Assembly (NCBI GenBank): GCA_020833055.1
Contig: JAJHQZ010000002.1
Span: forward strand, 130,301-194,300
Length of the DNA stretch: 64,000 nt
Source: Candidatus Korarchaeum sp.
Lineage (GTDB): Archaea; Korarchaeota; Korarchaeia; Korarchaeales; Korarchaeaceae
Direction: 5' to 3'
Under the pieces are notes generated by a model, which worked only from the letters and a program-made list of their open reading frames with translations, was not told the origin of the DNA and made no database searches. A program made the translations under genes and the position numbers. Positions 17,333 through 50,732 of this stretch are shown piece after piece (position 1 is the stretch's first letter; every line of letters starts with the position of its first letter).

Positions 17333-17962
17333 GTGCCGAACGAGAGGGTTTTCAGATCAGATCTGAGGAAACTGGCCTCGAGATTAGAGGAGAAAGGGAT
17401 TGTTCCAAGCGGTAGGCTGGATCCCCTCATAAATAAGCTCTCCGATCTTCATAAGAGGGGATTAGTCAAGATAAATCATTCAGCTATGGAAATAGTGATT
17501 GCAGCTCATTTCATTTCAAAGGGATATGAGGTGGACGTTGAGGTCCCAATAAATGATCTGAAATGTGATCTTCTATGTTTAAATGATATTAAGGTGATAA
17601 TTGAGGTAGAAACTGGTTACGTTCCGCCTGAGCACGCTCTAGATCCCGATAACTTCTGCAGAGCTAGAATTGCGAGCAAGATAGCTAGGTACAGCATTCA
17701 CTCTGACAGGTTTTATTTAGCGGCTCCGCCCACATACCTAATGGAGATACCGACCTTCGTCCTACTGCCCCCCGATGAGAGGAATGAGGATGAGTTGATT
17801 AAGTGGAAATCGCTCCTGGATTCTTACTACACTAACCCCCCGATACCTCTGGAGATGTTGAGGATTTGCAAGCTCAATGGGATACTCATAACTTCTGTTG
17901 ATGATGGTAGGGTAACTGAATTGGGCCCATCCACATATCTGAGGCTCCTAAAGGGGATATGA
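17333..17962 (+). CDS. Uncharacterised protein with a possible PD-(D/E)xK nuclease fold
   Basis: The 209-residue protein starts at a GTG, with an in-frame stop immediately upstream. Residues about 75-90 read DLKCDLLCLNDIKVIIEVETG, where an Asp and a downstream E-x-E on successive beta strands resemble the D...ExK-type metal core of restriction-endonuclease-like folds; the final Lys is not evident. An N-terminal helical domain precedes it. This may be a nuclease or an inactive relative. I do not know the family name. It is a monocistronic gene, divergent from pyk. Confidence 0.7.
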   Translation: MPNERVFRSDLRKLASRLEEKGIVPSGRLDPLINKLSDLHKRGLVKINHSAMEIVIAAHFISKGYEVDVEVPINDLKCDLLCLNDIKVIIEVETGYVPPEHALDPDNFCRARIASKIARYSIHSDRFYLAAPPTYLMEIPTFVLLPPDERNEDELIKWKSLLDSYYTNPPIPLEMLRICKLNGILITSVDDGRVTELGPSTYLRLLKGI

Positions 17963-18053
17963 GGGGCTTTCGGGGGTTCCCGTGGAAACGGGAATCAGCC
18001 ACTCCTTGGAGCGCTGGTTTCAGAGGTCTCTCTGATCCCCCTCTCCCGGCCCC
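17963..18053 (+). ncRNA. Candidate structured RNA with a four-way junction
   Basis: This GC-rich 91-base stretch between two convergent genes folds into a closed multi-branch structure. The outer helix is GGGGC 17963-17967 with GCCCC 18049-18053. An internal loop follows, then GGGGG 17972-17976 with CCCCC 18037-18041. Inside are three hairpins: a perfect 7-bp stem 17977-17994 with a GGAA tetraloop, a stem 17996-18016 whose inner CTC/GAG closes a CTTG loop, and a 6-bp stem 18020-18035 with loop GTCT. The GGAA (GNRA) and CTTG loops are stable only when read on the plus strand, which sets the likely strand. It does not match tRNA, since it has no T-loop, and I do not recognise the class. A long terminator or convergent-gene buffer is the alternative. 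Confidence 0.5.
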
Positions 18054-18088
18054 AGTTAGCGTGAAGCACTGCCTAATAAACTTTCCCA

Positions 18089-18706
18089 TCAACTCAGCCT
18101 AGAGATGAGGACTTCCCTATTGAACTGATTTTGAATTTCCGTTCCCATCTTGATGATCTGGGGTCCGATGGATGAGAGGAGCCATGAGCCCTCTATCTGA
18201 GCTATCTTAGGCATTGACTCATGCCCCATGCGACTAAGAGCTTTAAGCGAGGATGTAGTTAGTACCTGCTCCCTCCTGAGGCCTAACCATATCTCCACCG
18301 CCTCCTCTACAGCATTCATGAGCTTTTCGGTCGGCCTCCCGATTGCGATTCCGGGGCATCTTGGATCTAAGTATATGTAGAATGTCCCCAGCTTACTGGA
18401 GAAAGCCGCTTCCTCCCTCCTCCCATATTCCGGGTTTTTGAAGATGTAGAATGGCCAGAGCTTGCATGCCCTCGGTTTCATACCGAGCATCTGCAGATAG
18501 CAGAGGTGGGAGCTCAGGAGGAAGGGGCAGCTCCTACCTTCCTTCCTCAGGAAGAACCTGTCCTTCCTGATCTCTACGTAATACCTCCCTAATTTCCTAG
18601 ATATCTCTAGGGCTTCATTGGGTCTCAGGGGCACCGAGAAGTGAGAGCAGCAGATCCCGCATGCATTACACTCGAAGGAATGGATGTAGCTCCACGGGAG
18701 GTACAT
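18089..18706 (-). CDS. YkgJ-family cysteine cluster protein
   Basis: A CNACGICC motif (CxxCxxCC) at residues 13-20 and later cysteines in CPF, CYL, CKLWPF and CPG match the zinc/iron-chelating YkgJ-type family (UPF0153). Members bind a metal or Fe-S centre, but their reaction is largely unknown. At 205 residues it is longer than minimal members, with a helical C-terminal half. A GGAGGT motif lies just upstream of the ATG. It may be in one unit with the membrane protein gene upstream. Confidence 0.75.
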   Translation of the reverse strand: MYLPWSYIHSFECNACGICCSHFSVPLRPNEALEISRKLGRYYVEIRKDRFFLRKEGRSCPFLLSSHLCYLQMLGMKPRACKLWPFYIFKNPEYGRREEAAFSSKLGTFYIYLDPRCPGIAIGRPTEKLMNAVEEAVEIWLGLRREQVLTTSSLKALSRMGHESMPKIAQIEGSWLLSSIGPQIIKMGTEIQNQFNREVLISRLS

Positions 18707-28855: not shown

Positions 28856-29232
28856 AGTTCCAGCCTCCTCGCTGAGTGCAACCCGAAGATCAACGGAGGG
28901 ATCATCAGTCCCAAGATCCCTGTGAAGAGGAGGAGAGCACTCAAGGGATACTTATAGCTCTCCAAGAGGAAGAGGAATGAGTATATCATTATGGGCTCTA
29001 TAGTGAGGAAGAGGAGGAGAAATGGATAATATTGCATCATCAATAACCCTCTAGCCCTCCCTACAGGAGGGTTAGCGCACTCATACCTCTCCCTCTTCTT
29101 GGGGAAATCCCTAGATGGTGAGATAATTTTCCCAAGAGCTATGCCTATGATTCCCAAACCTATCCCTAAAATAAGGCCTATTGAGAATGTCACTAACACT
29201 AATAGCCCCTGTGAAGTAGATGTTATATCCAT
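28840..29232 (-). CDS. nuoA: NADH-quinone oxidoreductase-type subunit A
   Basis: A 130-residue, three-helix subunit with a conserved loop KKRERYECANPPVGRAR that corresponds to the ND3 loop (E-x-Y-E-C-G-x-x-P), including its cysteine. It is the first gene of the nuo operon. A GTTTTTAAC TATA-like element at 29263-29272 and a GGGGT motif before the ATG mark the promoter and leader. Confidence 0.9.
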   Translation of the reverse strand: MDITSTSQGLLVLVTFSIGLILGIGLGIIGIALGKIISPSRDFPKKRERYECANPPVGRARGLLMMQYYPFLLLFLTIEPIMIYSFLFLLESYKYPLSALLLFTGILGLMIPPLIFGLHSARRLELWSAP

Positions 29233-29262
29233 GCTATTTACCCCGTTTACACGAAACTGAAT

Positions 29263-29272
29263 TGTTAAAAAC
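29263..29272 (-). promoter_or_regulatory. TATA box of the nuo operon
   Basis: Reading on the minus strand, AGTTTTTAAC is centred about 35 bp before the nuoA ATG, giving a leader of roughly 9 bases. The rest of the 227-base gap up to cobO is extremely AT-rich (long A/T runs), with no visible gene. Confidence 0.5.
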
Positions 29273-29459
29273 TTTTCTATTCATATCCTGACTTTCTTTT
29301 ATGAAAATTTTCCATAATAGGAAATAACAGGTCAGTGTTACTAAATTTCTACTAACTTTATTTTATATCCAGTGCTTTATAGAAAAATTATAACAGAATT
29401 TTCATTACTAATTTGAATCAAATCAAGATTAAAAAATAAATATAGCTGAGGAATTAAAA

Positions 29460-35582: not shown

Positions 35583-35932
35583 CTCACCCCACTCAAAGCT
35601 TGGGCTATCACCCTCCCTGCTTCAGTGAGCTTTATCGGACTTCCATCACCGAACTCTATGAGTTTAAGTCTCCTCAAATCCCTTAGGGCGAACCAGAATG
35701 ATGAAAGTGGTATATTGAACTCTTCATTCGCTATCTTAGCCATAGAACTAGCTGAGATCTTGTTCTCGTACTTCAAAGTCAGTGTAAGTACTGCCTTCTG
35801 TCTTGGGCTCAACTTGAATAGACCGAATAAAATCAAGGACTCCCTGAGGGAGGGATCTATCATCGATATTGGCGGGGCATCACCACTCCCCATTGGCGGG
35901 GCTTCACCTGAAATTGGCGGGCCATCACCCAT
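35564..35932 (-). CDS. Small winged-helix DNA-binding protein with an N-terminal repeat tail
   Basis: A 122-residue protein. Residues about 35-110 form a winged helix-turn-helix (SPRQKAVLTLTL...SASSMAKIANEEF...LRDLRRLKLIEF), of the MarR/ArsR-like shape. The first 23 residues are three near-repeats of G(D/E)(G/A)PP(I/M)(S/G) that come from a 17-base DNA repeat at 35868-35929. If translation instead began at the Met before IDPSLRE, the repeats would be 5' untranslated. It is first in an operon with lysC and asd, which suggests local regulation of aspartate metabolism, but the target is unknown. Confidence 0.75.
   Translation of the reverse strand: MGDGPPISGEAPPMGSGDAPPISMIDPSLRESLILFGLFKLSPRQKAVLTLTLKYENKISASSMAKIANEEFNIPLSSFWFALRDLRRLKLIEFGDGSPIKLTEAGRVIAQALSGVRWWERG
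35868..35929. repeat. Three 17-base direct repeats at the start of the winged-helix gene
   Basis: Copies at 35868-35884, 35892-35908 and 35913-35929 read ATTGGCGGG(G/C)C(A/T)TCACC, with starts 24 and 21 bases apart. Both spacings are about two DNA turns and a multiple of three, so the repeat can be an operator array, a protein repeat or both. Confidence 0.75.
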
Positions 35933-35985
35933 CCCTCCGCTGAAGTGAGCTCCCTTTACACTCTCAATTTAAAAAGTTAACGGCA

Positions 35986-36044: not shown

Positions 36045-36707
36045 GTGGCTGAAGTGAGCGATCTGGAGGATACCCTATATAGAGTTGGTAAACTGCTGAT
36101 CTCCCCTAGGGAGGCATTCTACGTCCATTTAGCCGGGAAATATTCCCTCTCTCTCCCAATATTAGTGTATTTAGTCATTAGTTTCTCCTCATCCTCTCTA
36201 TTAGTGAAGTCGATCGCGAGGGTCCTAGGGATACCTAGGATAGGATTCCTCCCTGAGGTGATTTTGGAGTTCTCAGGAGCGATAGGCGTCACTATCTCAG
36301 TTTCCTGGCTCATCTTATATGCCACATTGATACACTTAATCGCGAGGATAATGGGTCATCTGAGCGGTAAGTGGGATGAAGTTCTGAGCGCTTTAGCGTT
36401 CTCATCTGTGCCACAATCCCTCACAGTATTCTCGATGAGTCTATCTTATATACTCAGTAGCTACGAGTTCCTGTTGATCTCCCTAATCTTAGTACCCCTC
36501 ACATACATATGGTCCCTCTACATATTGATCGAGGAAGTCTCACTGATATACGATTCTAGCATAGGCAGATCGATATTAATATCATTCTTTGGACCATTCT
36601 CATTCATAATAGTATCTATTCTCCTCTTCTCTATAATAGGTATACCCGGATTGATAATACCAGTGGTCTCTATGATCGTCATATATTACTGGAGGGAGAT
36701 GAGATGA
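36045..36707 (+). CDS. Yip1-like multi-pass membrane protein
   Basis: The 220-residue protein has a short cytoplasmic N-terminus with an ISPREAFYV segment, then about five hydrophobic helices. The pattern PREAF...LPILVYL...L(G)GxGxWDExLSALAFSSVPQ resembles the Yip1/DUF1282-type membrane family. The role in prokaryotes is not established. The start is a GTG, with another GTG at 36054. It overlaps the next gene by 4 bases, making it first in a five-gene operon to 39516. Confidence 0.7.
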   Translation: MAEVSDLEDTLYRVGKLLISPREAFYVHLAGKYSLSLPILVYLVISFSSSSLLVKSIARVLGIPRIGFLPEVILEFSGAIGVTISVSWLILYATLIHLIARIMGHLSGKWDEVLSALAFSSVPQSLTVFSMSLSYILSSYEFLLISLILVPLTYIWSLYILIEEVSLIYDSSIGRSILISFFGPFSFIIVSILLFSIIGIPGLIIPVVSMIVIYYWREMR

Positions 36708-49944: not shown

Positions 49945-49990
49945 TGATACCCCCGAGTGAGAGAGGGGATTTAAAGAAAAATGTTTTCGT

Positions 49991-50254
49991 TCAAGCGAAG
50001 GAAGCTATGAGTTCCTTCTCCTTCATCCTGTCCTTCTCCTCGAAGAGGTAGAGCTTAGCCATATCAGTGCCTTCCTCGAGGATAGCTACAACTGGGATGA
50101 TCCTCCCGGTTTCGTCCTCAGCCACGCCAGCATAGATGACCAGAGGAGGTAGTTCGTAATCGTATACTCTCCTCACCTCTGCGATATCGAGGCTCCTTAT
50201 ACCTCGGGGAGGATTGGGGAAATCGGTCCAATCGATCACCATCATAACTATCAC
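49991..50254 (-). CDS. Small hypothetical protein
   Basis: An 87-residue unknown. It starts MIVMMVIDWTDF (alternative Met at residues 4 and 5), has two beta strands around YELPPLVIYAGV...GRIIPVVAIL, and a charged helix at the end. No family recognised. The divergent arrangement with the winged-helix gene at 50437 and an intervening hairpin suggests a shared control region. Confidence 0.6.
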   Translation of the reverse strand: MIVMMVIDWTDFPNPPRGIRSLDIAEVRRVYDYELPPLVIYAGVAEDETGRIIPVVAILEEGTDMAKLYLFEEKDRMKEKELIASFA

Positions 50255-50333
50255 CGGGGATTCGAGCGAGTAGTATATTATAATTATAATTCAACAATTG
50301 ACGTACTCAGTAGAGGTCACGTGCAGGACCCAT

Positions 50334-50364
50334 CGAATGATAAAAATTTGTATTTTTTCATTCG
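50334..50364. promoter_or_regulatory. 13-bp inverted repeat with a TTGT loop
   Basis: CGAATGA(T)AAAAAT - TTGT - ATTTTTTCATTCG pairs fully apart from one bulged T. It lies between the divergent genes at 49991 and 50437, about 32 bases upstream of the TATA-like ATATTTATAAG (50396-50405). It could be an operator or a terminator hairpin. Confidence 0.55.
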
Positions 50365-50395
50365 CTAGAGCTGTCTTAACGCTCCTCCCCCCTCA

Positions 50396-50405
50396 ATATT
50401 TATAA
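50396..50405 (+). promoter_or_regulatory. TATA box of the small winged-helix gene
   Basis: ATATTTATAA is centred about 36 bp before the ATG at 50437, with a CCGGGGA motif 4 bases before the start codon. Confidence 0.5.
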
Positions 50406-50436
50406 GTAAATTCTCACTCGAAAGTCCGGGGAGCGT

Positions 50437-50676
50437 ATGCCCTGCAGCAGGAGATCCCCGGCTAAGAAGGAAGTCAAGGAGAAGGAGGAGGCAAAACTAG
50501 ATGATTTATCTAAAAAGATACTGGATGTCATGAAAAAGATGGGAAGGCCCGCTAAATGTGGAGAAATCGCGAAAGAGCTAGGAGTACCCGTACAACAGGT
50601 AACTGGGAAAATGAGGTCCCTCGTCAAGTCCGGATTGGTCAAGAAAGCTGAAGAAGGAACGTACAAACTCCCTTAA
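50437..50676 (+). CDS. Small winged-helix DNA-binding protein
   Basis: A 79-residue protein with a basic N-terminal tail (CSRRSPAKKEVKEKEE) and one winged helix (ILDVMKKMGRPAKCGEIAKELGVPVQQVTGKMRSLVKSGLVKK). It resembles archaeal transcription factors of the MarR/TFB-like HTH type but has no effector domain. Autoregulation through the nearby inverted repeat is possible (inference). Confidence 0.75.
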   Translation: MPCSRRSPAKKEVKEKEEAKLDDLSKKILDVMKKMGRPAKCGEIAKELGVPVQQVTGKMRSLVKSGLVKKAEEGTYKLP

Positions 50677-50732
50677 CTTTTTTGAGATAACTCTAAGTTA
50701 TGAAGTTCTGAAACCTTAAATAGAGGGATCTT

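Follow-up and report, generated by a model that had tools for sequence, protein, structure and literature searches.

Splicing at bulge-helix-bulge (BHB) motifs is known in archaea for tRNA introns, rRNA, a few mRNAs and the SRP RNA of Thermoproteus, and GC-rich (hgc) ncRNAs occur in AT-rich archaeal genomes. The BHB geometry is the target of the archaeal splicing endonuclease (PMC7714728; PMC4731332), and in a crystal structure of an archaeal enzyme with an A-rich bulge RNA the scissile phosphate lies between bulge bases 2 and 3 (PMC12397907). The SRP RNA of Thermoproteus has a TATA promoter upstream and is circularised at a BHB (PMC4731332), and in the circular 23S rRNA of M. acetivorans a GNRA tetraloop caps the BHB junction (PMC12918454). 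The korarchaeal tRNA-splicing endonuclease, EndA, is of the alpha2 type with a broad-specificity loop, and the organism has non-canonical introns (PMC4033280).

The window analysed here is a stretch of 64,000 nt from Candidatus Korarchaeum sp. (contig JAJHQZ010000002.1). The element under study occupies 17963-18053, between the convergent ORFs 17333-17962 (plus strand) and 18089-18706 (minus strand). The latter encodes a CxxCxxCC-type protein; the former encodes a protein of 209 aa that is conserved across the genus and has no Pfam match. The odd base composition reported in the first-pass annotation was confirmed, the G+C content of the 91 nt element being 65 % against 48 % for the window, a level reached by 0.03 % of 91 nt windows. 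Folding of the plus strand (-44.3 kcal/mol, z -2.2) likewise reproduced the closing helix, the 5 bp GGGGG/CCCCC helix and the three hairpins described there. However, the minus strand folds better (-45.3 kcal/mol, z -3.2). The proposal that the gap between the convergent genes encodes, on the plus strand, a structured ncRNA of uncharacterised kind built around a four-way junction holds for the RNA, which shows compensatory changes and has no Rfam match, but not for the strand, as homologues, promoter and G-U pairs all point to the minus strand. The same reading overlooked a BHB at the base of the RNA that is probably the key to its production. That an ncRNA gene exists here is near certain, and comparison of homologues makes the RNA and its strand as good as established. 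We annotate it as a structured ncRNA precursor of about 91 nt (17963-18053, minus strand).

No second copy of the element was found in the genome of the window's own species (G000). A DNA search of relatives returned four further loci, in which the similarity is centred on the element, and eight longer forms of about 122 nt lie at the same site in other genomes of the genus. The 5′ core (CGGGAAAGGG) and the 3′ core (CCCCCGAAA) are common to long and short forms. Scans of 29 genomes of the phylum with the core patterns found exactly one copy in 13 of the 16 genomes of the genus and zero copies outside it. These homologues share one locus, and relative to the window every one of them is encoded on the minus strand. 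A covariance model built from the long forms (R1) agreed with the scans for the long forms, and recovered neither the short forms nor anything outside the genus. What ties the long to the short forms is their shared place, strand, promoter and core motif, and not the covariance model. Two weak R1 matches (G012 C1 and G002 C43) proved on inspection to be without such an element. A single core-pattern match in genome contigs (a proteobacterial MAG) and three in viral contigs, where the fold is absent, were attributed to chance. A homologue was not found in G002 or G013, and in G006 the RNA is missing at the locus, where the two flanking genes are about 25 bp apart. In G005, the gene next to the RNA is not the usual partner, which is found on a separate contig; the RNA is therefore not an appendage of the partner gene. 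A search of other genera for a BHB element behind the neighbouring CxxCxxCC gene found none.

The ends of the minus-strand RNA can pair into a BHB. In the window, the fold places the 5′ strand of an outer helix h′ (GGGGC, 18049-18053) opposite GCCCC (17963-17967), a pairing partner also seen in homologues, and next to it CGGG (18045-18048) and CCCG (17971-17974) can form the central helix H. The 5′ bulge is AGA (18042-18044), where the crystal structure (PMC12397907) suggests by analogy a cut between 18043 and 18042, and the 3′ bulge is AAA (17968-17970), where the cut is predicted between 17969 and 17968. Both strands of H and the 3′ bulge are invariant in 13/13 homologues, and the 5′ bulge (AAA, AGA or AUA) is exactly 3 nt in every one. 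However, we note that this invariance is partly ascertained, because the motifs used to collect the homologues held part of the BHB, and that H, as it never varies, is not itself supported by covariation.

In the long forms, comparison shows the full geometry. Their unconstrained minimum-energy (MFE) fold has a 4 bp CGGG/CCCG helix with a 3 nt AAA bulge 3′ of each strand, flanked by an inner helix GGGGA/UCCCC and an outer helix UUGC/GCAA or a variant (CUGC/GCAG, UUGU/A...) with compensatory change at two pairs. The BHB is the MFE fold in 7/8 long forms, and the probability of its helix in these seven is 0.95-1.0 at 37 °C. The flanking helices h′ and h covary, with C-G to U-A beside H in G003 and G014 and A-U to U-A in G007, although the outer helix of these three genomes has only 2 pairs in strict BHB register. 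The lengths of the G-run and C-run also match in 7/8 long forms (GGGG with 7 C, GGG with 6 C); G008 breaks the rule. In the short forms, including that of the window, the geometry is available yet weaker. With only five C residues the BHB inner helix is 2 bp, and for the same reason the BHB helix competes with the 5 bp GGGGG/CCCCC stem. Helix H is also the MFE pairing in the short form of G011, whereas it is a minority conformer in G000 (probability 0.07 at 37 °C and 0.23 at 70 °C); the other short forms range from 0.23 to 0.99 at 37 °C.

A scan for BHB-like sites, with 20 stretches of the closest relative, G010, as background, ranked the window's site best in the window and joint fourth in 464 kb on both strands. 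Sites at its score occur about 8 times per 928 kb single strand, ours included, and no site in the 464 kb equals the score of 36 reached by the long forms. The top background match sits in apparent coding sequence, and as such sites arise by chance in coding DNA it is the combination of position, promoter and conservation that carries the case. The same scan recovered, as a positive control, the canonical 16S rRNA BHB in G010 (CGTG[aat]/CACG[aag]) and G001. The 16S rRNA flanks of these two genomes (L123, L125) form canonical BHB processing stems with an h′ of 12 bp; for the 16S flanks of G012 and G000 the scan gave only a weaker or shifted candidate.

We consider this probably to be a stand-alone gene, with EndA excising the entire body of the RNA at the BHB and RtcB closing it into a circle. 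The gene, on the minus strand with its 5′ end near 18053 and its 3′ end near 17963, would be transcribed from its own strong archaeal promoter, and the two transcript ends would pair into the BHB. Cleavage by EndA in both bulges would then free the whole body from two very short end pieces (11 and 6 nt in the window), and RtcB would close the body into a circle, of 74 nt in the window (17969-18042, minus strand) and 105-114 nt in the species with long forms. In the species of the window, which has the weaker BHB with a 2 bp inner helix, cleavage would depend on korarchaeal EndA being as broadly specific as has been proposed. Joining of 17969 to 18042 would place CCCCCGAA before AGGGGG, and at the junction CCCCC-GAA^A-GGGGG the joined ends would become a GAAA tetraloop on the GGGGG/CCCCC stem. 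In a circular fold of the G000 RNA, the GAAA-capped stem has a probability of 0.99 at 37 °C and 0.84 at 70 °C, and a GAAA-capped circle, with joined ends C-GAA^A-G on a G/C stem, is predicted for 13/13 homologues. In the genomes examined, a single ORF with two endonuclease domains encodes EndA, and RtcB is present too. Circularisation is likely on this analysis, and the product, with four arms and no free ends, would suit a hyperthermophile.

Like the permuted SRP RNA of Thermoproteus (PMC4731332), the korarchaeal RNA is encoded by a gene that stands alone behind a TATA box and has ends that can form a BHB. In Thermoproteus the tRNA-splicing endonuclease cleaves these ends, and their ligation gives a circle in which a loop is restored (PMC4731332), steps that are predicted here. 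However, the Thermoproteus RNA is a permuted form of a known RNA, whereas the korarchaeal RNA is far smaller and matches no known family. As in archaeal 16S and 23S rRNA processing, the BHB is at the base of the RNA, predicted here to be excised, and has 3 nt A-rich bulges, and the predicted circle would be capped by a GNRA tetraloop as is the 23S circle of M. acetivorans (PMC12918454), but the rRNA BHB is part of the rRNA transcript and the korarchaeal RNA has a small gene to itself. The motif and the predicted enzymes are shared with the tRNA introns of archaea and the circular intron RNAs that these give. Here, in contrast, no gene is interrupted, the end pieces are 11 and 6 nt, and the 'intron' would be the whole product. 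The hgc ncRNAs are also structured RNAs made conspicuous by base composition, although our RNA has no Rfam match to any of them. On balance, we lean towards a dedicated circular ncRNA gene that is practically without exons, from which the tRNA-splicing machinery would make a four-armed circle with a junction pre-designed as a GNRA tetraloop. If this is true, tRNA-splicing enzymes also make dedicated small circular RNAs, from a free-standing gene that exists only for excision as a circle.

A possible, though clearly less probable, reading is that the RNA is a linear trans-acting or structural ncRNA that keeps its ends, its conserved CGGGARA/GAAA internal loop serving to bind a protein or ligand and not as a splicing site. 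The MFE fold of 4/5 short forms does have a 7×4 internal loop at this position in place of a BHB, and that loop is the most conserved part. However, the long forms pair the same bases as a BHB in their MFE fold, their flanking helices covary in the BHB register, and the bulges are exactly 3+3 nt in 13/13 homologues, all of which speaks against this reading.

A search of homologues for compensatory changes, as the first-pass annotation had suggested, found them in the helices. In the long-form alignment, 13 pairs have changed on both sides where 6.3 were expected, a count reached in 0/500 shuffles, and sliding the pair partners abolishes the signal. A hand structural alignment gave 11 double-changed pairs for the long forms (0/1000 shuffles) and three for the short forms (32/1000 shuffles). 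Hairpin 1 (UCAGAG/CUCUGA, 18020-18035), hairpin 2 (17996-18016) and hairpin 3 (UUCCCGU/ACGGGAA, 17977-17994), all found in the fold of the minus strand, show double changes from A-U to G-C in G012, from C-G to U-A in G012 and from U-A to C-G, respectively. Stable tetraloops had been thought to exist only on the plus strand, but in the minus sense hairpin 2 of the long forms has a GNRA loop, as it does in the short forms of G011 and G005. Most of the compensatory changes fall in the RNA body and not in the ends, an argument for the body as the product that has the function. This tells against the improbable idea that the BHB is a processing signal alone, with EndA trimming a disposable leader or intron relic and the product degraded or left linear, even though cleavage at a BHB is no proof of a stable circle and the end pieces are too short for a product.

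The strand was read from pairing and from the promoter. In the minus sense, all counted cells of the hand alignment across homologues include 57 G-U pairs and 2 A-C; on the plus strand the 57 G-U pairs would be mismatches, and this fixes the minus strand. An alignment of the four loci from the DNA search also puts the conserved features, including the promoter-like GGGAAAGTTTATTA, on the minus strand. The TATA box TTTATTA (18074-18080) is centred about 24 nt upstream of the first base of the RNA, and the BRE GGGAAAG (18081-18087) is adjacent, both on the minus strand. TTTATTA is found in 12/13 homologues (CTTATTA in G012) at near-constant spacing to CGGGA, and an A/G-rich form of the BRE is conserved upstream in 13/13. 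The TATA-to-RNA spacing, measured from the centre to the first base of the outer helix, is comparable with that of tRNA genes of G010; the RNA has its own promoter with proper spacing and strand. A plus-strand ncRNA, or a DNA-level element such as a terminator or cruciform between convergent genes, is very improbable: the plus strand folds too and the element directly follows the stop codon of 17333-17962 (plus strand), but the excess of G-U over A-C pairs, the near-fixed promoter and the different neighbour in G005 are all at odds with it. An ordinary GC-rich spacer without function, as restriction to one genus and the closed gap in G006 might suggest, is scarcely credible and already refuted by comparison, as compensatory changes, promoter and core are kept across 13 genomes.

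Rfam searches at gathering and relaxed thresholds gave chance matches only and no family, and a literature search found no paper describing the RNA. It is an RNA unknown to Rfam and so far known from one genus of heat-loving archaea. A tRNA, including permuted or split forms, was rejected, as ARAGORN reported none, the T-loop motif is absent and the arm sizes do not fit. A C/D box sRNA was rejected because box C (RUGAUGA) is present in 0/13 homologues and box D (CUGA) is not conserved. There was no H/ACA family match in Rfam, and ANA is found only inside the GAAA bulge or farther 3′ at varying distance. A protein-coding ORF was rejected, as the frame is not kept: single-base indels separate homologues, and differences between them reach about 40 nt. 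A kink-turn reading of the CGGGARA/GAAA loop was dropped on inspection by hand, as A is opposite the second base of the bulged strand where the standard kink-turn has G.

The loops, some of them GNRA, vary among homologues, and the helices and junction are conserved. As conservation of these two and of the promoter exceeds that of any exposed antisense-like loop, the RNA would most likely serve as a structural scaffold in a small ribonucleoprotein.

Other non-coding parts of the window were also noted. The 788 nt gap at 49945-50732 is without an ORF of at least 150 aa or an Rfam match and contains a distant 13 nt inverted repeat, and the gap at 28856-29459 (604 nt), also without an ORF of at least 150 aa, is AT-rich (38 % GC). 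Three tandem copies of a 21-24 nt unit (ATTGGCGGGGCATCACC) are present at 35865-35935, in the 462 nt gap before ORF 36045-36707, and are possibly an operator or a structured leader.
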